From Sipunculus nudus (lineage: Eukaryota; Annelida; Sipuncula; Golfingiida; Sipunculidae): a stretch of DNA of 64,000 bases. Location: assembly GCA_026874595.1 (NCBI GenBank), contig CM049313.1, positions 32,732,008 through 32,796,007 of the forward strand. Reading direction: 5' to 3'. This document shows positions 2,057 to 59,760 of the stretch, one piece after another. The number at the start of each line of letters is the position of its first letter. Position 1 is the stretch's first letter. The translations under genes and the position numbers were made by a program. The notes below the pieces were generated by a model. The model did no database searches. It saw nothing but the letters and a program-made list of their open reading frames with translations, and was not told where the DNA came from.

Positions 2057-5000
2057 GTGAGTACAACTCTCTTTAAGAAATATCAGGATTTTGCCTGTGA
2101 ATGGTGACTTGATCTGTTAGTGTCTATCTCCAGAATATGGAGACAGACATTATGTGAGAATGATTGTGATTTTCAAAACATATGTTCTTGTGATTGAAGT
2201 GATAAATTTCGGGAAAGTAGTAGGCCTGTAAATTGTGAGGGCCCTCAGAATAGATTCAGTTATTGATTCTTTACCTTGGATTCTCAAATCAATTCTTATT
2301 TATGCAGTTAATTTCTGACTTATAAAAAATAATAGCAATTTTACCAAAGTGGATGATAGTAAATTCCAGCAAATATAGAAAAATGTAGCTCTCCCTCTGT
2401 TTGTGGCCGCCAAAGGGAGTGGAGTTGTCAACATACGAACATTTAAAGTAGGTTTTTGGCACATACACGATAAAGTCAAGAGTGTAGCCATGGCAAACTG
2501 CTGCATTTGAGAGCTCACAAAGGACTTTGGGATGGTACATGCAAAAAAGTAATCATCCATAATAATCAATTACAATTTAATCAAAGGCTTGCAATTCAGT
2601 GCATGGAAGAATGGATGCATTTTCACACCTGCCATTTTACATTGTTACACGACCCCTTTTTTCGTCATGTTAAGATCAAGCCAAGCTAGGTTTATCAGGA
2701 GGCACTGCCAATAGTTCATTTAGCCAGAGTGAGCTGATTGTGTACAGCTTGGTTTTGCTTGAAAAAATCAATACAAAAAGATAAATCCTTTACAATTAAA
2801 ATGCCTGAAAACAAAAGTTTAGGTTTTTAATCTCAGCTACTGAAACTTAACTGAGCTTTATCGATCACTCTTTGTCTATCATCTGTCCGTCTGTCCATTA
2901 ACAGGGCATAAATCATAATAGCTGGACCTAGAAAATTTCAATATGAAAACCTATGGAGTTCCATAAAATACATCCTTGGAAACCTGAAATTATGTCACAG
3001 TGATCGATATCCTCCAAGCTATGGTACCCCCCCCCCCCCCCGAATAATAAAAAATTTGATACAGAAGCTCTAATATCTAAATAACTAATGTTTGAATGCC
3101 ATTATTCTTTCCATATATATTAATCAAATAGTGTTTCATCATTTCCTTAGGACTTGTGGCGCAAACTGTATTTTTGCTAAAATTTACGTATTTTTTCTCT
3201 TTTTTTGAGACATTCAGATGAAGCAGTTCATCTGTAAATAGGGCACAAATCATAACCATTATACCTAGAACTGTACATCCAGGGAGGTCCTAGGCATATC
3301 TCCTGAAATTAGGCCGTGGTGACCTATATTTTGCGGTCTACAGGCTGAAAAATTGATTTTGAGCACCCAGTCAGGCAGACAGGGCATAAATTGCACCCGC
3401 TAGGCCTAGAATCTTCTCACATGACAGTCGGGCAGGTGCTGGGTAAATCTGCATTCAGACCTAAAATTTGGTCATGGTGACCTATATTTTGTGAAATATG
3501 GGCCATAAACATTATTTTTAAAACCTTGACAATCAGATGGGTACGAATTGTATCTGCTAAACCTAGAATGTTCTAATGTAACATACAGGAAAGTCATGGC
3601 CCATCTTCATTCATGGAAACCTGAAATTAGGTCATGGTGTCCTATATAACTGGCCAGAAACATTTTAAGCACCCATACAGTCAGACAGGGTACAAAACTT
3701 CATGGTTGGATCTAGAATCTTCTGTCTTGACATCCAGGGATGCTGTAAAAGATGTGCATGGGTAATTTTTAGCTCAGCTGACTGCATACAAAAAGGCTAG
3801 ATTTCATGGGAAAAGTTTATCATGAAACTTTTTCTTCTTGTTAATTTTGAAGAACTTTCATAGCTACAGCTGAATGGGGATACCACCTTCAAAATTTGGC
3901 ATTCATATGATAAAATTCTTTTTGTGAGTGTCTTCCTAGTCAGCTGAATGCATGACCTTTTGGCCAATTGTTAATTTTTAGCTCGGCTGACCGTAAGTCA
4001 ACTAAGCTATAGCAATCACTCTTTGTCTGTCGTCCATCCGACCATCTGTCCATTAACAGGGCCCAAATGGTAACCACTGGACCTGGAATCTTCTCACTTG
4101 ACATCCAGAGAGATCCATGAAAAATCTTGGAAACCTGAAATTAGGTCACTGTTACTCATATCCTAAGAGCTATGGGGCAAAAATATTAAAAATTAGATAC
4201 AAAAGCTCCAGTATCTCAACAAATACACATTATTCTTTTCATGCATATTGATCATGGAGTGTTTCATCAGTTCCTGCAGACTGGTGGCGCAACCTGTATT
4301 TTTTTCAATTTTTACAGTTTTTCTCTATTTTTGAGAGCTTTAAAGATGCTGTCATCCGTTAACAGGGCACAAATCATAACTGTTTGACCTAGAAGCTTCT
4401 TACTGGACAGCCTGGGAGGTCAATAAAAAATCCATCTAGTATCACAATATTGCCAATTCCAACTGGTCAATCAGCTGAGTGTCATGACCTATGGGTCACT
4501 TGTTTGTTTCCTGTCCCTGAAAGGAAACAGTGTGAGTGTAAAATGTTAAACGTTTGGCTTATGAAACCACCAGGATAAACTATATTAGATATTTGTTAAA
4601 TTTAAAATGAATGCAATATATCACACATTATATAGATAACTTGCTCAAATATAAGTTTGTACTCTGTAACATCGTCAATGAATAGGCTATCAGGTCAGTT
4701 TAAGCCAGCTGACATTTAGCAAGCCCAGTTGAGCCACAAAACTCAGCCTACTACTAAAGTCAGCCGTATTTTTGTCAAAGCCAGCCGCATTTGTGTGGCT
4801 AACATGGCTCCAGGCTCTACTTGTGATTAGCTCAGCAGTCTGATGAAAAACTGACCTATATAGGTAAGTAGAAGGTTCGAATGTAATATCCAGACCACTG
4901 TTAATATATTATTATATAAATACATTAATTTTTATAATGGTAATTAAACAAACCAGTTATCAAAAGCGATTTACAAGATTAAGAGATAATACTAATAAAT

Positions 5001-8000
5001 AAAATATATTACAAGATTCCTGCTAAACCCTGATTTCTAAGAACTACCAAAAGCTAATATAAAAAGGTAAGTTTTAAGATTTCTTTTAAAAGAAGCTAAA
5101 GATAGTGAAACTCTGATTGCGTGTGGAAGTTCATACAACAACCTTGGTGCCACAGCTGAGAAGGCTCTTGAATGACAAATCTCACTTTGTGCCTTAGGAA
5201 TCACTAAAAATCCTTGGTAGGGTGGTAAAAAGCCAAACTACATATATTATTTACATGCTTGTCAAGGCACAGTCCTTGGTCAAAAACTACCCAGAGATTT
5301 CTAGCACTGTTTGTTGGCACAGCTACAGAGTCAAATATGTTATGAATTTTTTTACCCTTTGCTGGTTTCTACCTATAATCAGAAACTCAGTTTTATCAGC
5401 ATTGAGTTTAAGCAGATTCTGACATATCCAAACACCTAAGTCATGCAGGCAGGTTTCAAAGGTAGAAATAGGAAATTTTGATTCTGATTGAAATGATATA
5501 TAAATTTGACTGTCATCCGCGTAAAAATGATAATCCATTTCATGTTGTCGTACTAATTCACCAAGCAGTAATGTGTAAATTGAAAAAGACAGAGGCCCCA
5601 GCACAGAACCTTCTGGCACCCTGTAGATGTTGTTAGTCAGAGAACATTGCAACACTGTTAACTGACTACCCTTGCACAAGTATGACCTGACCCATTTCAA
5701 GGCATCTCCAGTTATTCCAAGCCTAGTTGACAACTGCTTGTCTTCATAGAATTTGTTTTTGATCATGTGTTAAGTGATCATAGGAGTTGCAACAATCTTT
5801 CCTAACAACAGAAAGTTAGATATTGGTGGATAAGTGTTTCAAAACCTGTGCATCAAGACTGCTGTTCTCTAGTATGGGGGTTACAGTAGCTGATTTCAAA
5901 GATGCAGGAACTTAAAAAATGAAAAAAGACATATATAGCACAATTTACAGAAAATTGGAATAAGTACATCAGCACATAGCTTAACAAGCCAGGTTTGAAA
6001 AGTGTCAAGATCACAGTACTTTGCTTGTGAGCAATGTAAAATTTGAAAGATATTCTCTTCAGATAGTGGTGTGAAGGTATCAGGTGTGCATTTTGGAGTA
6101 GTGGCCTTTGCTCTTTCTACAGGGAGAGCACTGCGCTGTTCTAGCAAATTATTGTGAATTGAGTAAAAGCAACCAGAAGTTGCTAAAAGCCTCGGCTCTC
6201 ACTGAGGAACTTGGTATCGCTAAACGTGAATGTTTTTCAAGAAGGTTATTCACTATTGTAAATATAGCCTTTGAGTCATCAGCACATTCTGCTACCTTTT
6301 GTGTATAAAATGTTATGTCTTGACCTGTACGTTTACAAGCTACTGAGTGAAAACATTTTAATCACCTTGAGACTAGACAGTGGATTACTGGATAGCTTTC
6401 TTTGTTGAAGGTGCCTCCTGTCTTCATTTTGTCCAGTTATGTATCTTAACTAACCTGTGATCTCTAGGCATTGCATGCTCTCTGGGCATTAGGTCTTCAT
6501 CCTACTAGCAGCTTTTATCAGCAGTGGATTTGGAGGAAAATTTTGCACATATGATAAAGTCAGTGTACCACAGGAAATGTTTAAGCAAAATATAATTTTG
6601 TCAGTTTCTGTGCAGGAGCCTCACAAAGCTATTATTATCAACAGTGTGATGTGCTTGAATTTATTTTAGAGTTCTCAGTTGATTTTACTTTTAAGATTAA
6701 CATTCTAATTATCAGACTGTTTAGTCCTAACTTTCATTATTTTCATATGCACACAGTTCAGAGGTGAGCATTAAGTACTACGCTGTTCTTAGGGCCATTT
6801 TATATTAATAGGCTTGCTCACGGAGCTCAGCTAATGTACCATTACAAGGCCCACAGTAAAGCATGTTGCTGTTTATCAGCCATTCTATAATGATTGATCA
6901 GTAGGGCCTGGATATGAAGGTCACTGAGGTTCAAGGTAACTGTTTTTCTGGATGTGTTATTTGTGACTTACAAAATGTTCATGAATGTTTCAGGATCAAT
7001 CAAAATTTGATGGTGAATAATATTCATGTAAAACGTGTTTTACATATATTTATGCACATAAGATAAATCAGGGAAAGCTTATGACTGAGTTAAGTATGCA
7101 AGTTCTGTTGCTGTTGCACCTGCCTGTGAAATTTTTAAGAAAAGTCAGGAGAGTCATTTAAAATGCATAGGAATAAGAATAAATGTTTAGCAAGGTGAAT
7201 TTATAAACTTATGAGAAACAAAGTAAGTATTAGCCCAACCATTGTTCATATAAAACAATAAAGGTTGTTCAGAGTTAACTTCTGTGGCACAGTTAATACA
7301 AATCCTGAACAATGAAGTGTTTATATAAGCTGGATACTGGCAGGTGTAATCACTATTCTAATCCTGATTAGTGTATGTAAACACTCCTATCACAGACATC
7401 CTGCAGTATAAAACATTACGTGCTCAGCATACAAGATGGTTACAGGAGTTTGTGACAATCTGTGTTTGATAAGGTTCTGTAGTCGGCTGTCAAGATAAAA
7501 TCTCAGAGTATCTGATACATTATAGTCCACATCACAGTCATCTGCTCCAGTTAACCTGTATATATTCATTTATTCTTAGATCCTCCAGATAGGCATTAAA
7601 CTTTTTAGCCCTCAGCCCTTAGGCTGATGGGCTATTGTCGTCACCCAAGCTGTCCGTCCGTCCCGCGTCCATTAATTTTTACCTTGTGAGCGGGATATCT
7701 TGAAAAGGATTCACCGTCAGAATTTTATTTCCTATTTTTCCTATTTTTCTACATTTTAGAGCTGATTATAGAAAAACACTTCGATGCTTATTACTCAGGA
7801 ACCATTTGGTGGATTTTCACAAAACTTACTATGATTATTGGGACTGATAATCTGTACCTGCTACACAAGTTTGATGGCGCCACCTACAATATCTGATTTT
7901 AATGAATTTTTATCAGATTTTTCAACTTTGGGCTTGTGAGCTGGATATCTCTAAAAGGATTCACCGTAGGAATTTTATTTTTTCGGTGAAGATGTATATT

Positions 8001-11000
8001 GACAAAATCTCGGTCAAGTTTGAAGATGGGTGACCTTGACCTATATTTCTACGTTTTAGAGCTGATTATAGAAAAAACATTTAGAAGCTTATTTCTCAGG
8101 AACCATTGGCTGGATTTTCACAATACTTACTATGATCATAGGGAGTGATGGTCTGTAACTGCTGCACAAGTTTTTGCAATTTCTGATTTTTAATGTATTT
8201 TTCTTGGATTTTTCAACTTTGGCCTTGTGAGCTGTATATCTCTAAAAGGATTCACAATAGGAATTTTATTTCTTTGGTGAAGATGTATATCAACAAAATC
8301 TCGGTCAAGTTCGAAGATGGGTGACCTTGACCTACTTTTCAAGGTCACAGAGCTGATAATAGAATAAAACTTAGAAGCTTATTTTTCAGGAAGCATTTGG
8401 TGGATTTTTATGAATCATGGTACATACCTCTCCATTTTAAATTTATAACTGAGACATGTACAGAAATACATCCATGTGAGAACAGATATTTAGTACTTGT
8501 TACTGTTACCACCTCTAAACACTGTTCTTTTGGCTGAGGGCTTTTGTCAGCTTCTGCTGATATTCCAGTTATACATTATGTTAAATGGTTATACCTGTGT
8601 ATATTGAGGTCATCCAACCCATGAACTGAGCAATTCAGACACTTCCTGTCATCAGTAGCTAAGGGCAAGTTGATTTTGTATCGAGGGTTTTTTTTACGCA
8701 ACTGGATGAGGAATTTATTTATTAATCACCATGGTTTACTGTTCATAGTTGTATGGATACAGGTGTATATTGAGGTATTGCTGTGTCTTTTGAATTATGC
8801 ATTTTTCAGGTTAACTGAAATAATTATTGGTACACCATGATTTGTTCACTCTTGAATAACTTTTAATCTTATACAGAATTGTTCCTCTTACAGTTATGCT
8901 TCTGCTGTTCAAGGGAACTTTGTCTCCCATACTATGATTGGCCAAACTAATACTGGCTTTTTGCTCTAACTTGGCATGTATGTGCACACACAGACAGCTT
9001 AAATCCTCAGAATATTGGAAGTGACTCTGTTACATCAACAACATAGGCTCTAAAATCTCAGTATGTAAACATGGCTGGCATTTGTGCAAATAAAGCCCAG
9101 GGCTTCTTCAAAATAGAAAGTACAACATGCATAAAAGTGAAAGTATTAGTTGGTGACACAATAGGTCAACTATCTTAGTGGCTGATACTAATTTTGTACT
9201 CCAGGTACTGACAGGTGGTTGTCATGTAGCAATCTCACCAGGAAATTTAGTATTTTTTTTGTGAAAGTGTAAACATTGTAAAAATTATGGCATTTTTGGT
9301 GGAAGAGTTTAATTGATGCAAAAAAAGAAATTGTTTAACCAGAGGATACTCATAATATTTAAATAAATAGTGATTGCCCATTTGGTATGATATTTTTGTC
9401 CCCTTGGTCAGGCTATGCAAGGTTGGATACGGTTTGTTGGTGTTATTGCCCCCCCTGTCTGTCTATCATGTTTCATTTCCAGATGATAAACCCAAAATTT
9501 TATCTTATTTAACTTATTTGTTTTACTGTGGTTATCCACAAGAAGAGCTAGAAGTTGCATAGGCTTACTTTGGACTTTTAAGTCTCTCTCCACCTGCCCA
9601 TCTGACAGCCTAGCTCCAATGCACATTAGTTCCTTGATAATAAATAACATAATATTAAATAAGTGGTTGCCTTAGGGGTACCTTGGATTGGATTGCTTTT
9701 AAGATTCATCTGTCCATCTTGCTGTCTAGCTGTGGTAGCAGTCTGTCAGCAGTCCTCTGACAGTCTGTCCCTCAGTATCAGCTGTCAAAACTTCTGCCAC
9801 TGCTAAAAATGGCTCTTCATGCCGGTTCATCACATGTTCCAAATATTCTCATAGGTAACTTGAACCAGTATCTCAGGCTCTCCAGGTCATACATAGTGTG
9901 CAGCATCTCCAACATTATCAGGCATCTGGGTTATCTCATGGAATGGTCAGTGTCTCCTCAGTCACTTGAATCAGTGTTAGTGGTTGTGTTTTTAGAGAAA
10001 TGGACAAAACTGTGTACTACAGTCCTGAGTATATAGTAATGCTTTATGTACAGAGATGGCATACATTTATCACTATTTTCTTCCTATTTCACCCTGAAAT
10101 AGGCATTTAAGCAACTGTGGTGCCTTTACAGCACTCAGATGTTAACTGATCCAAGTGTTCATTATCCAGATATATCATCCGAGGATGCATGACAATACAG
10201 TTACTGTTATACTCCCAGTCATTCATTCTCAAACCTGCAAGCATGTGATACTGGTACACTGACATCTACTATAATACTGTTAAGGTCCCAAGCAAAGGAT
10301 GTAAATTCCATGAATTAGCTGTGCTTATGTTTACAAGTTATATCTTGATGAGATAGAACTGAAGTATATAGCCAGCACCCAGATAGGGAGTGTCTGGTCC
10401 AGTAGTGGACCCAGGTCTGCATGTAATTATCTAGTGATGAAAGTAAACACTAGGACATGACATACATGGCTACACCTCATGGTTACTATTAAATAACCCA
10501 TCAAAATTAAATGATTGTGGACATATTTTATTTCTGGACTGGATAATTGATCAGTGAATGTAAAGATGTCCATACATGAGGGCTCAAGTAATGGGGAAAA
10601 TTTATTATGTGCTTTTGTTTAGTATTTACAATCTCTTGTAACATTATTAATATATATAGCAACCCCTCTGTTCCTGTGTCCATCTGCAATTGGCTTGTGG
10701 ACTGATTTTAAGCCAAACCATTTGACTCTAACCTTTCATCTTGCACAAATGGCTCACCCACCCATGGATGAAGAATCCTATTGATTTTAAGGTCAAAGGT
10801 CAAGACCACAGGACCCACTTTCGAAAAACGTTGTGGGCTCATTTTTAGCCAAACCTTTCACCAAAACCTTTCATCTTGCACATATGGTTCACACACCCAT
10901 GGATGAAACCTATCAATTTTGAGGTCATAGGGTCAAAGGTCAAGACCACATGACCCACTTCTTGAAAAAAACTTGTGGACCCATTTTAATTTAAGCCAAA

Positions 11001-14000
11001 CCTTTTATCCAAAATCTTTCATATTCCACATATGGCCTACCAACCCTTGGATGAAGAACCCTATCAATTTTGAGGTCACTGGGTCAAAGGTCAAGGTAAC
11101 AGAGCTGCCTTTGTCATTGTCACTCTTGTATAATACATCCAGTATAATTATGCCTCCTTGTAAAGGGATGCTCCGCTTTGCGGTAACATTGTTTATATGC
11201 TTTAACTGACTTGCATTTGGTAAGATTGGTAGTTCAGGGTCACATTTATGTCTCACTGGATCTAAAATTTGGCATAAGCTATTTAAAACTACTGAACCAG
11301 CTGTTTGCATATCTTTTGTGTAGAATATTTGTGATTTCTTGTGTTCATCTTAATGAACCATTGGTAATTCCTGTTACGAGAAGTTCTTATAACACCTATG
11401 TGAATGATATATGAGCTTGTTTATGTATATTTCACCAGTGATGACAAACTGAAAAAAGACAACTTGTAACCAAAGGTGGCAAGTTGCATAGGTGCAGAAG
11501 TTAAAGGTCACTAATTGGAAAACACCCTTTGCGAAACTGTGGTTGACCAGACTCGCCACCAGATGCACTTGTTGAATGTATTTGGATTATTTTGGCCTCC
11601 TGCACGGCCCCCCACATGTTGTAAACACATGAATGTACACAATCAGGGTTCGATCTTAAGCTCTCTCGCTAGCCCACAGTGAGTGTGAAATTCAACAGAC
11701 TAGTATAATCTTGTTTGACAAGTATGATTTCAGCCCCGTCGGCTAACAGCCTATGATATTTTAACATTTGTTTTTCCATTCTAGCAAAGCTTACCATGTG
11801 TGCCATCATTTTTAACCTGGTTGAAACTTCTTTTCAAACAACATTTAATATCCAATGAAAAAATTATGTATATATGTTTCAGATAAACCAGTCATCCTTA
11901 CAAAAATTTGTGTTGGGGTTAACCCGGTTTATTGAGATTTTCCGTTGTGGCTTGAAAATTTGTTTGGACTAGTCTGTAAATAATTTTTGTTGGTATGATC
12001 TGCCGCAAACACACCTAGGCCCTTTAAAATCCACCTTCATGTGCTTCAAAAACAGCCTTTCTGTTACATTCCTAGATATTCTGAATTTCTATAATGAAAG
12101 GTATTTCCTGACTGCAGACATGGGGTAATTGTAATCAGTAATCGTAATTGATTGCAATCGATTACATTTTTATGCCCCCGCCACAAAGTGGCCGGGGCAT
12201 ATAGTTTTACCCATGTTGGTCATTCCGTCATTCCAAAATCAAACAGTTGTACAGACTTTTTTTCACAGTGCCTGCAGATATTGGTGTGATTTTTGGTGTG
12301 AAGCGTAGAAAATTTCATAAAAAATATATATTTTATGATAAGTGCACATGTACAGACTTTTTTTGCAATGCTTGCAGATACAGGCCTGATTCTTGGTGTG
12401 TGGGTAGATAATGACCAGTTACAGATGAAGATAGTGTTTCGTCCCAGTTGACCTACTTTTGACCTTTTGACTGCTCCTTGACATAGAAAATTTCATGAAA
12501 AAAAAAGAAATTTTCATGACAAATGTACATGTACAGCCATTATTAGCCCTCCGCCCATAGGCTGATGGGCTATTGTCGTCACCCAAGCTGTCCGGCGTCT
12601 GTCTGTCTGGCGTCTGTTAACTTTACCTTGTGAGCAGGATATCTCTTAAAGGATTCACCATTGGAATTTTATTTCATCAGTGAAGATGTATATCGATAAA
12701 ATCTCAGTCAGGTTCAAGGATGGGTGACCTTGACCCATTTTTAGCTCAGCTGACTGTAAGTCATCTGAGCTATAGTTGTGGTCTATTGTCTGTCGTCCGT
12801 CTGTCTGTCCGTCCGTTAGACTGGCACGTTTGGAAACTGTTAGACTTATGAATCCAAAATTCGGCATACTGTTAGATGTCCCTAAAATCTCCTACCATAC
12901 CGAAAATTGGGTCAATATGACTTCGTTCCTTCAAAATATTTAGGAAAAACCTCAAATTTCCATTAAAAACCAATTATCACACTTCAGGACTGTCTTATAT
13001 CAAAACCACTTATCTGTTTTTCTTAATATTTACGAGAAGTAATCTCCTATAAATTTCCTGTATACACGCCAGAAATTAAATCTGATAAATATCATTTCTT
13101 TAAGTTATGGGCCCGAACATAATGGACTTTTTGAAAAATCAGGAAAAAATATTTACTCACTTTACATGAAAAATTTTGAAACTAGAGACAATTTTCCCAA
13201 GTATATAACTTTGTTTAATTAAGATTCAATTGTTTACCCAAAATTAGATCTGAATTTTGTAAATTTTTTAAGTTATTAGCATAAAAATAAAATCAGTATC
13301 TTAAATTTTGAAAGCACTGTGCGGTTTATACTAGAAGGGTTTCATGAATATCTTCCTGACAGACATCTTTTTTGGGCCAGCGAGTGGGCAATAGTATGGC
13401 GACTTTCGAAGGCCGTCTTAGCAGCCCAAAAAATTATTTACCCCAACTGGCCACTGTAATTTTACTTTAAAATCACTCATTTTCACATGTCATGTCTCCT
13501 ATATGTACCCATCTCGACAAGTTACTTCAGATACTTTGATATTTAGTTAAGTTGACCAGCAATGTTTTCAAACACACCAGCAAATTGTGACATGGAGCGA
13601 TGTCAACGTACGATGTGACGATGAAGTAACCGGTATGGAAAATGATTCAAATCTTCTGAGTCATTCCACAAAATGGAATTTTTATCATAGATTAAGATTT
13701 CAAAATATTTCTTTTAGAATTAAAATGTATAGTGACTTGAAATGGATCAGCAGAATATTTTATCCAAAATATAATGGAAAATCTGTAGCAAATTCGCAAT
13801 CAAGAATACGGCACAGCATATAAAACCTGTATAAACACGCAGAGGTTCAACGGCCCTTGCGTCTTCCCAAACTTCATGCTTGAGTGACCCTGCAAAAAGT
13901 GTTTTGATGTGTTTAAATAAAATGCCCAAGAAATTTTGGCCGAGTCGCATTCTTTGTAGATGATAGCTTAATTGTGTCTTATGTCAAATCATTTTGTAGC

Positions 14001-17000
14001 GAAAGTTGGTGTGGTTTTAAAGGGGGGTTCTTAATATTTGAGCCCCTAGGGGTGTCTCACCTGGGATTTCGCCAAGTCTTGGTGCGGTTTTAATAGGAAG
14101 TGTGGTTTTAAGTGGAGATTTTACGGTAGCCCGCAAAAATATTCTTAAGATCAAACCCTGACAACAGGTCATCTGGCAGCAGGTCATGTACAGTTTATGG
14201 TGAGTTCTGCCTCCAGTAAAGGTCATGCAGCCAAGGTAGAAAACACTGCATGCACACTCATTCCAGTCACAGTTGCAGACTACTGGTGAAGTACCAATTG
14301 AAGCAACATTTTTTGGAGAGTGAGAATTCAGATTTGTTTTTATAGGTTGTGTTTATTGGTCTGTTTTTAAGTTAAAGCACAAGAATTATAAATATAAATG
14401 TTTTATTTCAAGTAAATCCCTGAAGGATCAATTACTCCAGCTGTTTACTCTTTAGTACATCTGGTCCGCAGGCACACAAGGTAAAGATTGACTTTAAGTA
14501 GCCACATAGACATACACAGAGTGTCAGACCTTTCTGACAGACATATGGGAGCAAACACCATAGTGATGAAGATACCTAGCTATATATGTGGTAGTAATAC
14601 TAGTATCAGTCCCTTATATTTTTAGTTGTTTTCTATAACATGTCAGTGTGGGTTAATATAATCCTCGCACCTTACAACCATTTTGTTTTCATCATACAAT
14701 CTTTGTTGCCACCTGAGGACTCCTTTCACCGCTTTGATCTGTCAACTGTGGTGATTCATGGACTCGTGAACTTCAGTTACTTAAGGTACTGCAGCTGGCT
14801 GGCCATGATCACTGTCCATTTGTTTATGGATGCCAGTCTTCATTCTGATCAGAATCTTTATCAAACAAAACCAATCCTGCTGAATGCACAACCATTGAAT
14901 GATGAGACATATTTTTATGTCCCATATGTCCCATAAAATAAGAATATTTCCTTGTAACTTGGCAAATAAAATAAATTTTTTAGATGTCAGAAGTATAAAA
15001 GACCTAACACAAATGCCAACCATGATTAGTCTGTATTTTAATTACTGTGATTCTGTAAACCTGGTAACTGTGACCACTGTTACTGACGACTTGAGACAAC
15101 GTCCCAGTGTGTACTCAGTAGAATCTACTGGGGTTAATAAATTGCAGTGTCTGAACACAGCTTTACTGTACAAGTGTTAATTTCTTGCATATCAGCAGTT
15201 TTTAGCCCTCAGCCCATACGCTGATGGGCTATTGTCGTCACCCAAGCCTCCGCCCGTATTCATCCGTCCGTCCGGCCTCCGTTAACTTTAACCTTGTGAG
15301 CGGGATATCTCGAAAGGATTCACTGTCAGAATTTCATTTCCTCGGTAAAGATGCATATCGACAGAATCTCGGTCAAGTTCGAAGATGGGTGACCTTGATC
15401 TATTTTTCTACATTTTAGAGCTGAATATAGAAAAACACTTAGATGCTTATTACTCAGGAACCATATGGTGGATTTTCACAAAACTTACTATGATTATTGG
15501 GACTGATAATCTGTACCTGCTACACAAGTTTGGTGGCGCCACCTACAATTTCTGATTTTTAATGAATTTTTATCGGATTTTTCAACTTTGGGCTTGTGAG
15601 CGGGATATCTCTAAAAGGATTCACCGTAGGAAGTTAATTTTTCAGTGAAGATGTATATTGACAAAATCTCGGTCAAGTTCGAAGATGGGTGACCTTGACC
15701 TATTTTTCTACGTTTTAGAGCTGATTATAGAAAAAACATTTAGAAGCTTATTTCTCAGGAACCATTGGGTGGATTTTCAAAATACTTACTATGATCATAG
15801 GGGACTGATGGTCTGTAACTGCTGCACAAGTTTGGAGGCTCCACCTACAATTTCTGATTTTTAATGAATTTTTCTTGGATTTTTCAACTTTGGCCTTGTG
15901 AGCTGTATATCTCTAAAAGGATTCACAATAGGAATTTTATTTCTTTGGTGAAGATGTATATCAACAAAATCTCAGTCAAGTTTGAATATGGGTGACCTTG
16001 ACCTACTTTTCAAGGTCACAGAGCTTATAATAGAATAAAATTTTGAAGCTTATTTTTCAGGAAGCATTTGGTGGATTGTTATGATTCATGGTACATACCT
16101 CTCCATTTTAAGTTTATAACTGAGACATGTACAGATATACATCCATGTGAGAACAGATATTTAGTACTTGTTACTGTTACCACCTCTAAACACTGTTCTT
16201 TTGGCTGAGGGCTTTTGTCAGCTTCTGCTGATATTCTAGTTAATTTATATTTCCACCTCCAGAAATTTGAATTCAATAAAATCAGCTCAAAAACTGAACA
16301 TGTCTATGTATTTGCAGGTCATCAAAGTCCCCGGTGAAATATCATCAGACAACCCAGAGGGTTATCGCATATTCAAGTTTACATTGTCAGCCATACAAGG
16401 AGACCCCAAGGGCAGCTTTGGTTGTGTGAAGCAGGGCAGATGGAGGTAGGATAGATGTCATGTTACAGCAGCAAGCACAGCTGTCCATGAACTACAAATA
16501 ATGAATGGTCATTGTTAATTCACCAATAAACTGCAGTTTTGTCATTTTCATGCACCAGCTGATATTGTCAGAGAAGTTTAACTAAACTATAGAAAGGTAG
16601 GTTGGCAATGCCCCACTTTCCATTCTCTCTCAAGCAGAGAGTCCCATTGACTGGGCATGTTATGCAACCCCAAAATGTACAAACAAATAATTTTGCACAC
16701 ATTTAAGTATTTACAGTTTTCTCTTACCATACCTCAGACTAGATTACATAAAGATGAGCCATGTTGAATAACCACAACTATAATTGAATAAGAATCTGTA
16801 ATATTCATTAAATGCACCAATAAAAGGAAATTATACATTAGGGTTAGGATGGTTACCCATATTCAGTATTTTCATGATATCTGACACCTACGGTAATGGT
16901 ACTGTCAACTTTCATATTATCTTCATATCACGATATGCATTTTTGTCCTTGATTTTGGTTCACAAGCAAGCTGTTGGAGTGTATTTTCTGGGGAATCTGG

Positions 17001-23000: not shown

Positions 23001-26000
23001 TACAATAGGTCCATTTTAAGTATTTTTAGCTCAGCTGCCTATAAGTCAACTGAGCTATAGTCATGGTTCTTTGTCCGTCAACCATCCGTTAACAGGGCAC
23101 GTTTTGAAATATTTGGACCTACAAATCTGAAATTCAGCCTACAGTTAGATGTCCCCAAAATCTCCTTCCATACCGAAAATTGAGTCACTAAAACTTCATC
23201 GCTTTGAGATATTATGGAAAAACCTCAATTTTCCATTAAAAACCAATTGTCACAATTCAAGACTGCATAATATCAAAACACCTGACCTGATATTATTCAT
23301 GTTTACTATATCCATCCCTCTATATATTTCCTATGTAAATACCAGAAATTAGTTCAATATTTTAAAATTTTTTAAGTAATGGGCCCGACATAATGCACTT
23401 TGAGAAAAATCAGGAAATATATTTACTCCCTTAACTTGAGAATTGCTGAAGCTAGAGACTTTTTCAGGGATATTAACATTATTTAATCAAGATTCAATTG
23501 TATACCCAAAATTAGATCTGAATTTTTCAAATTTTATAAGTTATTAGCATAAATAAAAAATCAGTACCTTAAATTTTGCCTAGATATGACCATGGCACAT
23601 TTTTTTCCTGTAATTGCTGTGGATTTAATGGTCACAGCTTGTTTTCATAAGCATTTAATCTGTTAAAATCTGAAATTTGAAACCAGTTAATCAAAAACTG
23701 TAGATTTTATTCAAGTTTTCAAGCACCATGTCAAGTATTGTTTACATCAAGCTAGTGTTATGCAGTTTGCTAGAGCTCACCTCCCGAACTTCCCGGGCCA
23801 GCTCTCTGCATTCAAAATTTGGCATACTTTTGATGTCCCCCAAATCCCCTAATATACCAAAAATTTGGTCAATAGGACTTAATTCCTTTGTGATATTAAG
23901 GAAAAACTTCAATTTCCCATTTAAAACCAATTGTTACACATCAAGACTGCCTAATATCAAAACCACTGATCTGCCTTTGGTCATATATAATATGCATATT
24001 CTTCTAACATTCACCATGCACAAGCCAGAAATGATGTCAGTATTGTGTAAATGTTTTATGTCATTGGCCTGAACATAATGCACTTTGTAAAAAATCAAGA
24101 AATATATTTACTCCCTCAACATGAGAATTGCTGAAGCTAGAATTTTTTGACAGCAATATAATATTATTCGATCAAGATTCAGTTGTATACCAAAAATTAG
24201 TTCTGAATTTTTTTAATTTTATAATTTATTAGCATTAATATAAAATCAGTACTTTAAATTTGTACATGATAAGTGAGCTATCACTAATTGTCCTGTTGTG
24301 ATGAGTTTCAGGGCCCTGTCAGGTTATGTTAGAACATTTTGCAAGATGTTGTATCAAGTGAAAGTTTATGTTGAGTCATTTGGTAAAAATAACCCTTTCT
24401 TGTTGTAACAAACCGTTAGGTAAGATGTATTCCTGTCATGTAATGAATGTGATATGTAATGTGAACCTGTTTTAATCTTTTTCAGAGATCGTGTAATTCA
24501 TTTATTAGCTTTGAGGCCTTATAAAAAGCCAGAACTAGTAGCAAGACTGAATAAAGGTAAGTACCAGCCTTCATTGGTAAAATGTGTTTGTCCTCATTGC
24601 AGTACTGTAAAAGCATTGATTTAATACATCCGCTTTTCTTCATATTTCAAAGCCAACTGTCTACTAATATTGAGTCTGATTAAATGGGACTAATAATCTA
24701 CCAAAAAAAAGGAACAGATCCTTTATGTTCTGCCAAAATCAGAGTTTATGTATCAAACAGAACATTTCAAAGCCCTCAAAAGAGGATCAGCTATATCCAG
24801 TGTGAAAGCAGTTTATTGTAAAGTTCTAATGCATCAGATACTGATAAACTTTTAATTCCTCCACTCACACAATTAATGGACCATAAATTGACTCAGTTCT
24901 GATTGGGGGAAGCCTACACTCGCTGGATGCAACTGGGTGCTATGTTTCAACAATTTAGCTGACAGAGTTGACCTCCAACCAAGAGGTTGGGCATGTAGGA
25001 CAAATCATTAATATTACCCTGGGAAATGATCAGCAAGCACTTGTGTATGCTCAGGGTGTTTCAATCATGGCACAAGCGGCTGTTTCCATGTGCATCATCA
25101 CACTCCTCACATATTTCAGTGCTTGCATAACATTTTGCAGGGCTATAACCAATATGTTTCTTCTATAAAAGTATTTAAAGAAATAAGCACAGCATTCAAG
25201 TCCAGTGTATTGTTGTGTAAATATATAGGAGCACTGTTTTCAAATTCTGTTTTTGTTTTTTTGGTCAGGAAAGTTATTTGATTTTGTGTGTTAATGAAAG
25301 TGTTTGTAGTTCCAGTTTCCATTTCCAGATGGCATCAAAGACAAAGATAGGAACACATTGGGTAGAGTATTACAACAAGTTGCTGTGTTAAGTACAAGAG
25401 ACAATAGCTACAGTTTAGCCAAGCATCTCTTCAATACAGTCAGACAAGATTGGCCTGCATACACAGAACTGGACAGGCAAACACTCAAAAGGTCTGTTTT
25501 TACATGTAGACCAGAAATAATTGTGTCCTGTAAGATCATTTGAAGAATAGTCAAAATATAATTCCTTGAAACATTTACCTTCGTTTCAAGGGATTTTTAT
25601 ATACATGTGAAGTATAACATAGGATTTGTTTTCACCATGCCAATACTGCTTGACATACTTTGTTATACATTGGTTGTATGTAATCATATGTCATTGTGCT
25701 TTATTTGATAAATGAATCTTGTGAAAACTGTGATATGAATATATGTCACTCCAGCCTTCATATATTTTTGGATCATATTTAAGAATGTGTTGTAAAGCGT
25801 GTACAGTTGTACAGCAGACTTTCTGCCAGTACTGAACTATTGATAAACTATGTTTGTAGGAAGATGCCATGTGATGCTCTCAGCTCAGCAGGGAGCTCTC
25901 CTGCTCTGTCTCTGTCCCCTTGCCATAGCAACAGTAGCCAGGGCAGTCCCACAAATTCTCAGGTCAGAGGTTATCTCAATATATGTCTGTTCATCATACA

Positions 26001-37530: not shown

Positions 37531-38623
37531 AAGCACAGCTGATTATAGGTCATCTGAGCTATAGTGATCATTCATTGTCCGCTGTCTGTCCAGCTGTCCA
37601 GTTGTCTGTTAACAGAGAACAAATCATAACGGTATGACCTAGAAACTTCTAACTTAATATCCATGGAGGTCCTTAAAAATCTGCTTGGAAACCTGAAATG
37701 AGGTCACTGCATTCTATATTCACAGAGTTAAGGGGCTTGTTTGTGCGCTCCCAAAGTTTTTTTTTAAATTGATACAAAAGTAACATTAGCTCACTAATTG
37801 ACGCATATAATCCCACGATGCTTGCTTTGCTTATTGAAAATCTTCAACAGTTGGTAAAGATTGGTAGTGACATCTCTATTTTTTTTTTTAATTTAACATT
37901 TTTCTGTGAGACTGAGAAATGACAGCAATCATATCAATGCTTCAATTTTTTGTCCAAAAACCTTGTTTATTGATCATGACTAGTGCCAACAGCTTGTGAA
38001 GACTGGTGGCGCCTTCTGTATGTTTTTCTGGGGGGTTTTCACTCATTTTTCTCTTTTTTTTTTTGAGACTGCCAAATTATGTCTATGGTTTCTGTTTCCA
38101 AGTCATGAAACTTGGGATGTTTATTATATCTCCTCATGTGAACCTGATAACTGTGACGTATGGCATATTTTGTCTTCAAATTAGATAGACAAAATGTTTC
38201 AACCAAGTTCTAAAGAGGACATTGAAAACTTGTGGCCTTGGCCTTTATTCTGAAAGTCAAATCAGCCGAATTATAGTTTCATATTCAGCATTTTTATGCA
38301 ATAATTTGAAGTATTGTGTATGTATCCCTCAAATTTGACATACAAGTTGTTTCCACCATGTTCTCGCGGGAGTTTGCAACTGGTGACATTAAAACTTTTC
38401 TTGTACAACTTGTATATACCAATCATGATTGGATATAGTCTTCACATGTGTGACCCATTACTTTAGAAGAACCCTATCAAATTTGTGTTCATCAGGTCAA
38501 AGATCTAGATCACATCTGAAGTTACTCTCAGTTTGGATTTTAAATAATAAAATTCATGTTCTGAATGTTAGCCTATAATGTCATTGTATTGTCAGCTGAG
38601 CGTAATGACCAATGGATCACTAG
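37531..38623 (+). mobile_element. Hairpin-headed family A, full-length copy
   Basis: Head aagcacagctgattataggt/catctgagct, then gtccgctgtctgtccagctg; body landmarks (ggaaacctgaaat, agactggtggcgcc, ttttttttttgagactgcca); the 3' end gtcagctgagcgtaatgacc, hairpin tgaccaatggatca and ctag|ttt. The CTAG-T end is the clearest Helitron-like terminus among the A copies. Confidence 0.85.
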
Positions 38624-41339: not shown

Positions 41340-41870
41340 AGCTCTGCTGACTATGAGCCATCTGAGCTATGGTCGTGGTCCTTTGGCCATCCGTCAGCAG
41401 AGCACGTTTTCATATGGTTGAACCTAAGAATCCAAAATTTTGCATACAGTTAGATGTCCCAAAATCTCCTACCATTTCGAAAATTGGGTCACTAGGACTT
41501 CGTTCCTTCGAGATATTGAGGAAAAACCTCCGTTTTCCATTAAAAAAGCCTATGTTACATTTCAAGGCTGCCTTATAAAATATATATATATATAAAAAAA
41601 ACATTGATCTGTTTTTGATCATATTTAGTAAGCATATTCTGCCAAACATTTTCTATGTACATACTGAATATTAGGTCAGTATTGCGTATTGATTTGAAGT
41701 TATGGGCCCAAACATAATGCAATTTTAAAAAAATCAGGAATATATTTACTCACTTAACATGAGAATTGCTGAAGCTGGAGACTTTTTTTCAGGGATATAA
41801 CTTTATTTAATCAAGATTCAATTGTTTACCCAAAATTAATTGGTAATTAGCACAATGATATTGTTTGTCC
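41340..41870 (+). repeat. Hairpin-headed family A2, tandem to the previous copy
   Basis: Head agctctgctgactatgagcc/atctgagct; body landmarks gttagatgtcccaaaatctc and gggcccaaacataatgc. Includes a short (TA) expansion at 41580. Its 3' terminus may be the decayed tgacccacaggtcccttgttt near 43200, giving a ~1.9-kb element. Confidence 0.78.
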
Positions 41871-43329
41871 CTCATTCAACCAAAAGTGTGTATACGTTAT
41901 TTGAAAAGATGTTTTTATTTTATCATTTTACTAAATCTTTTATTTCGGTGAATAAAATTAAGCATGTACTGAAAACTCCAATGTACAAAACGTTTTAATA
42001 GTGATTCAAGGAATAATCTTGAAGATGCCATGTTGTGGCATTATTTTATTTTAAATTCAGTTTAAATATTTGTGATTTAAAAATAATAAAATATAAATGT
42101 ATGCATAGTATGACCCGATGTGAGCTAAACTCTGGATTAATAATGATTGCAACTTGGAATTCTGATATAAAACTTGTAAATAAAAGAAATTAATCTGATA
42201 AAAACTATTAATGGAAAAATGTATATGCTAAAACAAATAGACTTTAATATAAACTTAAATGCATTATTCCCTTGAAAGTGAAATAAAGGTATCAGTCCAC
42301 TTGCCTGTCCATCTGTAAATTTTTCATATGCATCACAGTATCTCAAATCTTTTTCTTCATTACAGTCTTGTCAGAGTATTAGTTTTACAATCATATATTT
42401 AGAACTTTACTATAACCAAGTAGGAGCTAGGGCCCGACTACCTTAGGTTACATGGGTGTTTGCTGTGTATTTCAGAAGAAACACAGCCCGGACATCCGTC
42501 ACACAGACGTTATAAGAACTTGTCTTGACAGGTATCACCTATAGAGTTGAATGATGTGTTTACAGAGTAAACCTGAAATCGCATAAATTCTATAAAAAGG
42601 TTAATGAATAGGTGGCTTTAAATTTCCATTTTAAGTCACAAAACAGATGATCCTTGAACATACATGTATCATCATAATTGATGGCAAACGCATGAACAGA
42701 AATTCAGGATTTCATAAATGGAATAATTATAAAATTAACAATATACGCTTAGGTTCATTACTCTTTTCCTGGCCACGAGTTTCCTTCAGTGCAATGTATA
42801 TGTATCATGCTTGATTTAACATGCTTCTCAAATTTAGCTTATTCTTATAGTGAAAATGAAAAAATTCAATCTTTAACATCCTCTTATTTCAGTTTATAAA
42901 TTAAATGTGTACATGTATCATAATTCTGTGATCAACTGATCCCCACGTTCTTGCTTTACATGGTTAATTTGATACATTCCCAGTTGGTATATTGATATGC
43001 ATATTGCAGTCAGTTGAGATACAGATACTTATACAAATATTTGATCATGATTCTAGTCTTTAAAAGTATACAGGCAACTCCATATGTGTAGATTGTGTTT
43101 TATCAAATAATGACATAAAAAAGTCAACTGTTGCCTCACTTCCATTTGCTAGAATTGTAAACAAATATTCTCAGAATCAAATTCAAATGAACGCCTTGAC
43201 CCACAGGTCCCTTGTTTCTTAATGTTCTGGTGTTCACTGTAGCTTATCTTCCTTGAATGGTATGCGAAGATAACCCTCAGGTTTTACAGATGCATTCCGT
43301 GACTTCTTTTGTGTAGAATATCACTACTA
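41871..43329. other. Intergenic sequence, possibly the distal body of the preceding A2 element
   Basis: At 43188-43218 is aacgccttgacccacaggtc ccttgttt, a family A-like 3' terminus. Between 41870 and 43188 nothing else is recognised; an exon-like stretch at 42476-42531 between ag and gt is unconvincing. Confidence 0.4.
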
Positions 43330-44603: not shown

Positions 44604-44820
44604 TAGTCCCCCTCCGTAGGAGGGAGGACTACTAAAGTAATCGACGTCCGTCTTAGCCCATTCTTATACCAAATATCTCTGAAAACCCTTACTGCTTTCT
44701 TCAACAAATTTTACAGACATACAAAGACTGACATGTGATTATGTACCAGGAACTCGCACACTATTTTAATCAGACTCAATATGAAGAGTTTTTATCTTAA
44801 ATTCCGATTCAATCCGGCTA
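44604..44820 (+). repeat. Hairpin-headed family E, 3'-truncated
   Basis: Starts after ttt with agtccccctccgtaggaggg aggact, a near-perfect hairpin, then cgacgtccgtcttagcc and 'ccaaatatctctgaaaaccc'. No 3' end seen. Confidence 0.65.
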
Positions 44821-50410: not shown

Positions 50411-50780
50411 CAAATTTGTCCTTAGAAAAAAGTCTCTAGCTTTAAAATTTATCGCGTCAGGTGTATAAATGTCTTTCCTGATATTTTACAAAGTGCACTA
50501 TGTTTGGGCCCATAACTTTTACAAATCACATAATACTGACCTTATTTCTGGCATGCACATAGGAAATATGAAGGAGAATACTTATGGGAATTTGAAAGGT
50601 AAAGAAAACAGATACGTGGTTTTGATATTAGGCAGTCTCCAAGTGTGATAATAGGTTTTAAATGAAAATTAAGGTTTTTCCTTAATATGTAGAAGGAACA
50701 AAGTCGCACATACCAAGTTTTCGGTTTGTAGGAGATTTTGGGAACATTAAAACAGATGACATAAATTCAGATGAGCTACA
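50411..50780 (-). repeat. Family A2 internal fragment, minus strand
   Basis: Contains the reverse complement of the A2 strings agagacttttttct, gggcccaaacatagtgc, 'ccagaaataaggtcagta' and 'ccttaattttcatttaaaac'. Confidence 0.72.
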
Positions 50781-54049: not shown

Positions 54050-55232
54050 ACAAGTGACTCATGGGTCATGACGCTCAGCCGACTGAAATGTTGACAAAGG
54101 TCCTTGAACAATTAAGATAATGTAGGTGGCACCATCATTTATGCATATTAACTTATTGTCGAGGTTCGATTTCTCAACCGTCCTCTGTTAGGTGAAAGCC
54201 CACTCAGGTTTACTTAGTCATGCAGGAAGTGTTGTTTAAACACGTTTATTTTCACATAAATCTTACATCCAACTCTCTCGACTTCCGCCCAGCCTCGTTC
54301 TCCGTAAAACTCCAAGAATAATAAAGAAAATAAAAATCGCTCTACGGACCCCAGTAACCTCAACATACAAAATCATACCAGGTATGCGAAATGATTTAAC
54401 TACATACAAGTATAGTTACATGCTACCATATAAAGAGTGCAGACACAGTGAAAATACATTCAACCTCCGACATTAAGTTCATCAAGACCCAAAAGAAACA
54501 CAAAATTTGATGACAATCGATTCAGCCGTTCTTAAGGAATCTGGTGATTTGTGTGTATATTGCATTATTTCTGGAAATTATACCTCGTAACTTAAAGGTA
54601 TAAAGAATAAAGGTCACAGAGACCTAATTTCAAGTTTCTAAGGAGAACTTTTGAGGAGCTCTCAGGATGTCAAGTTAGAAGATTCTAGGTCCAATGGTAA
54701 TGATTTGTGCCCTGCTTTGGAATTAAATTTTCAATTATTCTGGGGGTGTTTATAAGCCAAATAGCTCGGAGAATATGGGTAACAGAGACCTTATTTCAGG
54801 CTTCCAGTGAGATCTTTCGTGGATGTCGCTGGATGTCAAGTAAGAAGTTTCTAGGACCAACGCTACAGATTTATGTCCTGTTATATCGGACGACCGCGCC
54901 ACCAGTCTGCAGGATCTGTATAAATACTCCATGATCAAGACGCATGCAAAGAATCATGGTGATCAATGCATTAGTTGTTCAGATACTGGAGCTTTTGTAT
55001 CAAATTTTGAATGATTTTTGGGGGTACTTAGCTCGGAGGATATTGGTAACAGAGACCTAATTTCAGGTTTTTTTATAGATCTCCCTGCATGTAAAGTTGG
55101 AAGATTCCAGGTCCAGCGGTTACGATTTGTGCCTGGTTAACGGACGGACGGACCGACAGATAGACAGACAGACGGACGACGGACAAAGAGTGATCGCTAT
55201 CGCTCAGGTGATTTTCAGTCAGCCTAGCTAAA
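54050..55232 (-). mobile_element. Family A element inserted inside another family A element
   Basis: On minus: head agctaggctgactgaaaatc/acctgagcg, then gtccgtctgtctgtctatct and gtccgtccgtccgttaacc; 3' end cggctgagcgtcatgaccca and tgagtcacttg. Flanks are the two halves of another A copy, breaking it inside its T-run before gagaccgtc. A ~310-bp non-A segment (54165-54475) sits in the body, so it carries its own insertion or capture. Confidence 0.8.
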
Positions 55233-56833: not shown

Positions 56834-57877
56834 TCATATGGTGACGGTATTAATGATTTTCTCTCCTACTTTCAGATCTTCTCGTATCTTCTCACCGTCT
56901 ATCGTTCTATGTACAAACGGAAAGAACGGATGTAGGTCCTTACAACTCACCGTCACCACCTTACCTACACGAGTCTCCGTCCTGTGGTTATAACTTACGG
57001 AGACACATTTACTTATATCATAATTACGCTTAATGAATTTTTCAGATTGACCTGGTGCATTAAGCATCAAGTTCATGAATGGCCTCTTAACAAGCGGGAA
57101 CACCCAGTCCCTGGGATATTTAAATCTGCCTGCAAACCCGGGGTCTGCGTCATAAACAGTTAACCCATCATCATGGTAAAAACTAATGTCCAAAAACGGA
57201 TAGGTCCATTTAACCTGTGGAATAAATTTACCCTTTGTAATATAGAACTTTAGACGATTATACATCATGACATGGCTGTATTCCGGTGCCATGGATGACA
57301 GAAGCTCTTGTATCTGCTTAATTTTATTGGCATCCATGAACAGATCAATATCGTCATCCCATGGAATAAAGCCATGATGGCGGTATGATCCGATCAATGT
57401 TCCTCCGTACATGAAATACTCCAACCCGGCGCTGGTGATTTTATTTAAGAATATTTTAAGAAGGTTTTCCCAAGCAGCGAAATCAGATTTGTGGAGAGAA
57501 GGTTTAAAGTACTGCAGTTGACCAGCAGGCAAGGGCTTATAGAAATCAACTTGATTTTTGGATAATCCGAGGCTACCATTCGGGTGTTTTTTCACTGAAG
57601 TGTTCAAGGCCTGCAGTGAGACAGTAGTGTCGCAAGAAGCGTCTTTAGCGTTCTTTTCAACTGAGTTAGCCTCAGCTGTGGTATTTGTAGCAGTCTCGCG
57701 TTTCTTTGCACTGGGTTGGTTGGTTACGGTGTGTCGTCGTCTGACCGGGGGGTCGGACCGCTTAGAGACGGGGGTGGTAGACTTGTACAAAAGAAATATG
57801 AAGAGAAAGGTCGCAAAGGGGATGCCGAACGTCAGAATCCGTTTCCTGACACACATCTTGTCCATGTCGCTGACCAT
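56834..57877 (-). CDS. LicD/fukutin-family type II membrane protein, 347 aa
   Basis: LicD-family proteins are nucleotidyl- or phospho-sugar-transferase-fold enzymes: bacterial LicD moves phosphocholine onto cell-surface glycans, and fukutin/FKRP move ribitol phosphate in the Golgi (family knowledge). Here residues 1-13 are short and cytosolic-like (RKR before the membrane), 14-31 form a hydrophobic signal anchor (ILTFGIPFATFLFIFLL), and 32-115 are a basic, Ser/Thr-rich stem with NTT (65), NTS (92) and NGS (100) glycosylation sequons. The domain follows: MYGGTLIGSYRHHGF (156-170), IPWDDDIDLF (171-180) with the metal-binding DDDID, and LDISFY (229-234). The single coding exon is intact. The ATG is close to the membrane anchor. 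The substrate is unknown; I do not assign an orthologue. Confidence 0.88.
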   Translation of the reverse strand: MVSDMDKMCVRKRILTFGIPFATFLFIFLLYKSTTPVSKRSDPPVRRRHTVTNQPSAKKRETATNTTAEANSVEKNAKDASCDTTVSLQALNTSVKKHPNGSLGLSKNQVDFYKPLPAGQLQYFKPSLHKSDFAAWENLLKIFLNKITSAGLEYFMYGGTLIGSYRHHGFIPWDDDIDLFMDANKIKQIQELLSSMAPEYSHVMMYNRLKFYITKGKFIPQVKWTYPFLDISFYHDDGLTVYDADPGFAGRFKYPRDWVFPLVKRPFMNLMLNAPGQSEKFIKRNYDISKCVSVSYNHRTETRVGKVVTVSCKDLHPFFPFVHRTIDGEKIREDLKVGEKIINTVTI

Positions 57878-57890
57878 TGGACCCTAAAAT
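57878..57890 (-). promoter_or_regulatory. Splice acceptor 6 nt upstream of the LicD-like start codon
   Basis: On the minus strand the sequence is ggtttattttag|ggtccaATGGTC, a good polypyrimidine-AG acceptor. The exon would begin at 57883, leaving 6 nt of 5' UTR, so a separate non-coding first exon and the promoter should lie at higher coordinates. Confidence 0.65.
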
Positions 57891-58392: not shown

Positions 58393-58398
<6 letters not shown>

Positions 58399-58831: not shown

Positions 58832-59025
58832 CAAGTGACCAATGGGTCATGACGCTCAGCTGACAAGGAAAATATTCATCTCATTGGCAAATTGTGATGG
58901 CGGTATCCCCATTCAACTGTATAGCAATTAACGTTCTTCAAAATCAACAAGAAGTAAAAGTTTCATGATAATATGTACAGCCATTCCCATGGAATCTAAC
59001 CTTTTTGTATGCAGTCAGCTGAGCT
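58832..59025 (-). mobile_element. Short ~190-bp family A element, complete
   Basis: Minus strand: head agctcagctgactgcatac after a T-run; 3' end gtcagctgagcgtcatgacc, hairpin tgacccattggtca, cttg|tt. The 12-bp agctcagctgac head is the inverse of gtcagctgag before the 3' hairpin. It is the smallest complete copy here and the likely minimal unit. Confidence 0.82.
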
Positions 59026-59760
59026 AAAAAATGACCATGCACATTTTTGAAGGACATCCCTGGATGTCAAGACAGAAGATTCTTGGTCCAACAGTAAAGT
59101 TTTGAACCCTGACTGACTGCCTGTGTGCTTAATATTTGTTTGGCCAGTAATATAGGTCACCATGACCTAATTTCAGGTTTCCTGGAGATTGCTAAAGACT
59201 TCCCTGTATAGAATGTAATTCACTGGAACATTCTAGCTAGGGCTTACATATACTTTTTGTGCCCATCCGATTTTCAAGGTGCTCAAAATCACATGTTTGG
59301 TCCAAAGTTCATAGAATATAGGTCACCATGACTTAATTTCAGGTTTCCATAATTTACACAGGACCATCATTAATGTCATTATAGAAGAATCTAGGTCTAG
59401 CGGGTAAAATTTGTGCCTTGTGTGACTGCTGGGTGCTCAAAATCATGTTTTTAGTCAGTAGTTAACAAATATAAGTCATCATGACCTAATTTCAGGTTTC
59501 CATGGAGATTTGTTTAGGACCTCCGAGGATGTACCGTTACGATTTGTGCCCTGTTCAAGGACAGAATGCTTCATCTGAAGACCTAAAAAACAGAACAAAT
59601 AAGTAAAAATTAGAAAAAAATACAGGTGGCACCACCATACTTCAGGAAGTGCTGAAACAATCCATGCGTGTTATGTTAGAATATTCTAGGCCGGGGGGAT
59701 ACAATTTGTGCCCCTTCTGACTGACTGAGTGCTCAAAATCATATTTTCGATATAACAAAG
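59026..59760 (-). repeat. Family A long body joined to the short unit, 5' end lost
   Basis: Minus-strand counterpart of 2830-3770: 'tgcatggtcatttttt' junction, 'gacatccagggatg', 'cataatttcaggtttcc' blocks, 'ggtggcaccacc'. The head is not found near 59760. Confidence 0.72.

Follow-up and report, generated by a model that had tools for sequence, protein, structure and literature searches.

Several groups of Helitron-like rolling-circle elements have been described whose ends bear hairpins. Canonical Helitrons (Helitron1) combine a Rep-helicase with a 3' stem-loop and a CTAG-like 3' end, and are recognised by a 5' TC, a 3' CTRR, insertion between A and T and the lack of a 5' hairpin. Helitron2 elements with asymmetric terminal inverted repeats (ATIRs) place the 5' ATIR in a terminal hairpin and the 3' ATIR upstream of a 3' hairpin, and an algal example inserted after TTTT (PMC3627910). 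In Helentrons and the associated DINE-1/HINE elements, a protein with Rep, helicase and endonuclease parts is found, subterminal inverted repeats (subTIRs) and a 3' stem-loop are common to autonomous and non-autonomous forms, and the target is TT with variable terminal Ts; Helitron2 is described there without an endonuclease (PMC4067079). Cg_HINEs of the oyster Crassostrea gigas have an 11-12 bp subTIR with a complementary inverted repeat that forms a 5' hairpin, tandem central repeats, a 3' subTIR with a palindrome, a T-rich target and, in several, a GTCY/GTCC/GTCK microsatellite (PMC7492417). Here, a 64-kb window of the Sipunculus nudus genome (GenBank GCA_026874595.1, contig CM049313.1, positions 32,732,008 to 32,796,007) is shown to hold three hairpin-headed repeat families, A/A2, LR and C, with the anatomy of HINEs. 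Families A/A2 are very probably mobilised by a Helentron lineage of the same genome, termed class II, that has the same ends.

In oyster, no autonomous Helentron could be related to the HINEs (PMC7492417), and in the genome paper autonomous elements went undetected and the Helitron-like elements were judged likely inactive (PMC7992393). No later link between a bivalve HINE and a partner was found in the limited library examined, including the available text of PMC12628747 and PMC8268682. Unlike for the oyster HINEs, a partner is identified here for family A, and it is this link that is new; the families themselves are further examples of HINEs.

Hairpin heads and copy numbers

The genome comprises 1.43 Gb in 153 contigs, labelled C1, C3, C7, C8, C17 and so on (the window is C8:32732008-32796007); "family C" always denotes the repeat family. 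Heads were located in the window by regular expression and folding, and a profile was then built from 8 copies. In families A/A2, LR and C, an imperfect hairpin of 27-29 nt follows a T-run and is itself followed by GTCY-rich DNA. A/A2 heads lie at 12743, 23028, 37532 and 41340, LR heads at 7607, 12545 and 15204, and the family C head at 12172; the nhmmer profile adds A heads at 2828, 3976 and 40775 on the plus strand and at 55233 and 50414 on the minus strand.

In a strict scan, a head had to show at least three Ts ahead of an 11-nt arm in which 10 or more positions pair. The window yielded four (7607, 12172, 12743 and 15204), whereas 60 dinucleotide shuffles averaged 0.03 and never exceeded 1. 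At least two GTCY motifs stand behind three of the four, and behind none in the shuffles. The scan misses the remaining heads, including that of a further hairpin, E, which is preceded by TTTATT. Folded as single-stranded DNA, A (12743) and family C both form stems of 8 and 5 bp, separated by one 1x1 mismatch and closed by a 3-nt loop, while LR (7607) and E form two stems of 6 bp on either side of a 1-nt bulge, closed by a loop of 3-4 nt. Seven heads were folded, and their z-scores lie between -2.2 and -5.8. The A 5' boundary is common to eight aligned copies (a window copy and its seven best genome matches), seven of which are preceded by a T-run (counted by eye).

Genome-wide, exact heads number 23,053 for A/A2, 1,428 for LR and 2,873 for family C, and the reversed patterns, used as a control, gave 0 each. 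Since the patterns are strict, the true copy numbers must be higher. A preliminary description of the window had placed a hairpin right after a T-run at the head of these families, and the heads recovered, with nearly none in shuffles, bear this out. The GTCC-rich DNA that it placed behind the heads is present in A, LR and two other copies of family C, but weakly developed in the C copy of the window (GTCATTCC). An autonomous element has a 5' region to which the A2 bodies are related (see below).

E had been listed as a fourth family. Its head hairpin is real, but the exact pattern has a single match in the whole genome, the window copy. Its inverted arm, with up to two mismatches allowed, has six matches in the window against 5.5 expected, and the only exact one is the E head itself. 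E is thus not supported as a transposon family and is best set aside until another copy turns up.

Shared plan of the 3' ends

Elements of A, LR and C end at CTAG, CTTG or CCAG, followed by T. LR starts with AGCCCTCAGCC directly after TTTTT, and in both complete copies (7607-8568 and 15204-16239) the closing arm is the exact inverse, GGCTGAGGGCT, matching at 11/11 positions; a TCAGC-TTCT-GCTGA stem-loop and then CCAG or CTAG complete the 3' ends (8532-8568 and 16203-16239). The family C 3' end, taken from outside the window (L046:4349-4385), consists of GGCGGGGGCAT, GTGTCG-TTC-CGACAC and CTAG before T. Its arm is inverse to the window head at 11/11 positions, and the contig C3 copy departs from this (by eye). 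A-type ends follow the pattern CAGCTGAGC..TGACC..GGTCACTTG before T, with an inverted arm of 9/10 over the stretch compared, and are confirmed in the window at 4472-4502, 27902-27932 and 38593-38623 and, on the minus strand, at 54081 and 58862. The 3' stem-loop of family C reaches a z-score of -2.61 (2/200 shuffles as good), and that of LR -1.85 (9/200). The preliminary description had ascribed an inverse of the 5' motif, a 3' stem-loop and these termini to A and LR; this is confirmed, and C has them likewise.

The diverged A element at 2830 ends, by eye, in CAGCTGAATG..CAATTG before TT and stands head to tail with the next A. Such head-to-tail arrangement of A elements or A-type 3' ends, with few T/A between, was seen at 2830-4502 and at L068 with its extension L079.

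The anatomy of A, LR and C is that of published HINEs, with Helitron2-type asymmetric inverted repeats, as already known from oyster; the likeness to Cg_HINEs, which extends to the arms, hairpin, GTCY block, central repeats and T-rich target, is one of anatomy. Inverted repeats, about 11-15 bp long in HINEs, stand next to the 5' end and upstream of the 3' stem-loop, as in DINE-1/HINE elements and in Helitron2 (PMC4067079, PMC3627910). The target is T-rich, as seen from the T-runs before A copies and from one family C pair, the latter without clear duplication. In contrast to canonical Helitrons, the families have 5' hairpins and inverted arms, and a T-run in place of the A-T target, with C found in an A/T run. 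The preliminary assignment to Helitron-like rolling-circle elements therefore stands, with ends that fit Helentron/Helitron2 better than canonical Helitrons.

Rep-helicase Helentrons of the genome

A genome search with the PF14214 profile, in which the best 150 of 195 candidates were scored, gave at least 143 matches, and none in 14 control genomes. At 50% identity, the Reps of 30 loci group into class I (24 loci), class II (L034, L036 and L038) and three singles; 23 of the 30 cluster as class I at 80%. Class I carries Rep, PIF1 helicase and endonuclease on one frame. In class II, these parts are seen on two different copies: Helitron_like_N (97 bits) and PIF1 (74 bits) on contig C7, and the C-terminal AP-type endonuclease PF14529 on L062 (28.8 bits, cut-off 27.4). 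Class II therefore has the domains of a Helentron, including the endonuclease that Helitron2 was described without. On contig C17, a class II copy has a 2,342-aa open frame plus an A-type 3' end. Frames upstream of the contig C7 Rep have weak OB-fold matches (E ~1e-3, below curated cut-offs) and are perhaps RPA-like.

Class I Helentrons run on their 3' sides into tandem repeats before any element end is reached, which leaves them as candidate partners. The repeats of L039 (C11:50375500) recur at 74% on the small contigs C139 and C141, and C139 has a frequent repeat period of ~4,669 bp, as though Helentron repeats had given rise to a satellite array. Three closely similar class I Reps on one strand of contig C7 (48525832, 48556035 and 48587672; L025, L023 and L024), spaced 30.2 and 31.6 kb apart, suggest tandem units. 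A hairpin head TGCTTGCCGGAAATC..GATTTCGGCAAGCA, with a T-run before and GTCC after it, is a possible further HINE family; it lies at L039:665 (~14336 in the joined stretch), on the plus strand, which for the class I element is the minus strand.

A probable partner for family A

A class II helicase query was used, with the best 150 of 359 candidates scored, and 3' flanks were taken from 20 of the first 24 matches and from the contig C7 copy (e38, the first match), 21 in all; C5:68054200, C13:24254335 and C11:15533704 were skipped. A 22nd flank, on contig C1, was chosen for an LR head upstream. Flanks measured ~1.3 kb, and 11 of the 15 without an end there were extended to 2.8 kb. Twelve of the 22 copies have a same-strand A-type 3' end downstream of the endonuclease: 11 of the 21 (e38, L050, L052, L064, L065, L067, C4_L053, C10_L068, C17_L069, C5_L066 and C9_L058) and the contig C1 copy. 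The 21 flanks (43.9 kb) hold 13 same-strand A-type ends and one on the opposite strand (L063), where the density of such ends in the window would predict ~1.7 (P ~2e-6 if copies are independent, which they are not fully). The positive copies fall into about five sequence groups, and so the 12 cannot be counted as independent.

Across subfamilies of class II, similarity is lost beyond the coding part and reappears, at 83-92%, only within the last ~35 bp; L067 and L065, for example, regain it only over the final 35 bp (91%). Copies at different sites diverge right after CTTG or CTAG, and the distance from endonuclease to A-type end is similar within subfamilies. TGACC..GGTC or TGGCC..GGCC is kept in most of 14 class II flank ends. 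The stem changes on both sides, from TGACC/GGTCA to TGGCC/GGCCA, in the related copies C4_L053, L064 and L065, and C9_L058 has a non-pairing variant.

On the 5' side, the contig C3 copy has an A head, AGCTCAGCTGACTATAAGTCATCTGAGCT directly after TTTTT, with a long GTCY block at 10551024. With its 3' end at 10579900 it spans 28,877 bp, the family C insertion included, compared with ~14 kb given for a proto-Helentron in PMC4067079. A2 repeats behind this head are 73-79% like the window copies at 12743, 23028 and 41340, and are followed by unique DNA 97% common with the contig C7 copy. The latter also has A2 repeats before the unique region and no head at its start. Because it begins inside the A2 repeats, after a stretch that also lies behind its own 3' end (by eye), it looks 5'-truncated in a duplicated array.

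The Rep-helicase element with the same termini that the preliminary description had suggested seeking is thus found for A/A2, through the 3' end in 12 of 22 copies and the 5' head in one. That the contig C3 autonomous copy also has the hairpin and GTCY block is consistent with its proposal of these as the recognition signal. Two other candidate associations were rejected: an LR partner on contig C1, where 16 kb separate an upstream LR head from a class II-like helicase and the 3' end is A-type, and a GGGGTCACGG motif near L045:1915 as the class II 5' end, where homology between three copies extends far upstream.

For family C, an insertion could be reconstructed. The class II Rep gene on contig C3 (L036) is interrupted by a 1,708-bp family C element, which the 98% identical contig C7 copy (L038) lacks. 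The sequence at the empty site is CAAGAAAAAATAAAA, and that at the filled site is CAAGAA, the reversed C element and then AAAAAATAAAA. The element has therefore entered an A/T run, and no more than two ambiguous bases were gained; beyond these, there is no target duplication in this one pair, of family C only.

Mechanism and competing explanations

Taken together, A/A2, LR and C are best read as HINEs with Helentron/Helitron2-type ends, A/A2 being mobilised by the class II Helentron that has the same ends; a probability of roughly 0.86 is given to this reading. On this model, built from sequence comparison, Rep would nick after the T-run at the 5' hairpin and the helicase would peel off one strand. 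Copying would stop on reaching the subterminal 3' arm and stem-loop, where the 3' arm, complementary to the 5' arm perfectly or nearly so, would displace the imperfect 5' hairpin. The strand, or a circle, would then be inserted between Ts, and class II would thereby mobilise A in trans. As LR and C have the same plan with different arms, they are probably served by other, candidate Helentron lineages.

Several observations weigh against the class II link. Ten of the 22 flanks lack a same-strand A-type end, four within 1.3 kb (L051, L057, L060 and L063) and six without any A-type end in 2.8 kb (C13_L056, C9_L062, C6_L061, C3_L055, C2_L054 and C5_L059). An A head was seen at the Helentron 5' end only on contig C3: the contig C7 copy is headless, and on contigs C13 and C17 the 4 kb upstream of the long frames, which stop short of the 5' ends, gave no A head at E <0.01. 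The sole copy with both ends is split by the family C insertion. A2 bodies in the window resemble the Helentron 5' region at 67-87%, A 3' ends in the window match class II over only ~35-80 bp, and this identity is below the >95% reported for partners in insects. Two A 3' ends in the window fold no better than shuffles.

With A heads so common, it is possible that a HINE merely adjoins the Helentron, and more generally that A heads and A-type ends near class II genes are neighbouring insertions while the true Helentron ends differ. The abundance of A (five clear 3' ends in 64 kb) and the flanks without an end speak for this. It is nevertheless improbable given the strand bias, the similar endonuclease-to-end distances, the divergence of flanks at the A-type end and, as the main argument against an adjacent HINE, the A2 repeats before the unique region in both the contig C3 and C7 copies. 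Somewhat less improbable, though still unlikely, is the preliminary proposal of one machinery for all, by which one Helentron lineage would move A, LR, C and E through a common hairpin and GTCY signal. The heads do share a plan of T-rich flank, hairpin with one imperfection and GTCY, and their folds coincide pairwise (A with C, LR with E). However, arms and 3' stem-loops differ in sequence between families, E has one exact copy, and no complete LR, C or E end was found in the 22 class II flanks, where single motif matches (up to two changes) occur but never arm and stem-loop together. Two other Rep loci, L033 and L035, have no complete A, LR, C or E end in 2.3-2.5 kb. Finally, the families are short, non-coding and abundant and have inverted arms, as pieces of a conventional cut-and-paste DNA transposon, or of a SINE, might. 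This origin is very improbable, as the arms are asymmetric (terminal at 5', subterminal at 3') with an added 3' stem-loop, one family C copy entered an A/T run with no clear target duplication, and the A ends are common to a Rep-helicase element.

The HINE reading also bears on how ends are recognised. Bao and Jurka proposed that the 5' hairpin is lost when the 3' and 5' arms pair, and that this pairing fixes where copying ends (PMC3627910). The A, LR and C hairpins are flawed where the 3' arm is complementary, so their sequences are suggestive of a fit with this proposal. Among 17 A heads, the flaw position is unpaired in all 17 and other stem positions are paired in 13-17, although heads were kept only with at least five of seven outer pairs, which favours those outer positions. 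The fully paired form occurs at 110 places against 22,833 other hits genome-wide (by subtraction), and the flaw base among the first 100 A heads listed is T in 97, A in 2 and C in 1 (counted by eye). Selection on the flaw is not established: copies inherit it, and inheritance from few source copies could explain the unpaired base, so this evidence is suggestive only. That the flaw is a functional weak point for displacement by the 3' arm, each family having its own Helentron that reads arm and flaw, is a tentative and rather unlikely idea.

Other features of the window

The elements of the window are collected in Table 1. Behind the A2 head at 12743, the next plus-strand A-type 3' end comes only at 27902. 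Between 12172 and 13310, C, LR and A2 heads follow in a row in the same orientation, each shortened by the next, like stacked one-ended insertions. At ~24480-24560, a likely spliced exon adjoins the A2 element at 23028; we take its encoded protein to resemble elongation factor ELL. A 349-aa open frame at 56834-57883 on the minus strand presumably resembles a LicD/fukutin-type protein.

Table 1. Hairpin-headed elements, fragments and 3' ends in the window (window coordinates)
Feature	Position	Strand	Remarks
A element, diverged	2830..3970	+	nhmmer head 2828, E 1.5e-24; 5' boundary common with 7 genome copies
Complete A, 523 bp	3980..4502	+	hairpin head, GTCY block, 3' inverted arm, stem-loop, CTTG before T
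LR, complete	7607..8568	+	inverted arms 11/11, ends CCAG before T
Family C 5' fragment	12172..12544	+	hairpin head and first repeat
LR 5' fragment	12545..12742	+	between family C and A2 heads
A2 head and body	12743..13310	+	79% to class II Helentron 5' region
LR, complete	15204..16239	+	88% to LR 7607..8568, ends CTAG before T
A2 head and two body repeats	23028..24261	+	75-80% to class II Helentron 5' region
A-type 3' end, Helentron subtype	27902..27932	+	..GGGTCCCTTG before T; matches class II ends at 95% over 38 bp
Complete A, 1,092 bp	37532..38623	+	ends CTAG before T
A2 head and body	41340..42155	+	colinear with contig C7 Helentron 5' region in two blocks (85%, 87%)
E hairpin	44605..44630	+	single exact copy
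A2 body fragment	50426..50772	-	A head at 50414-50299, same strand
A-type 3' end	54051..54081	-	nhmmer E 1.3e-9
A-type 3' end	58832..58862	-	A copy; body to ~59750 (matches 59659-58876, 59748-59669)

Implications

In this genome, an abundant family with HINE anatomy is tied to a Rep/helicase/endonuclease lineage, unlike in oyster. The link makes the question of partners, the origin of the scattered tandem repeats and the rule of end recognition directly testable. If, less probably, the hairpin flaw is functional and each family depends on a Helentron of its own, several non-interchangeable rolling-circle systems would operate side by side in this genome.
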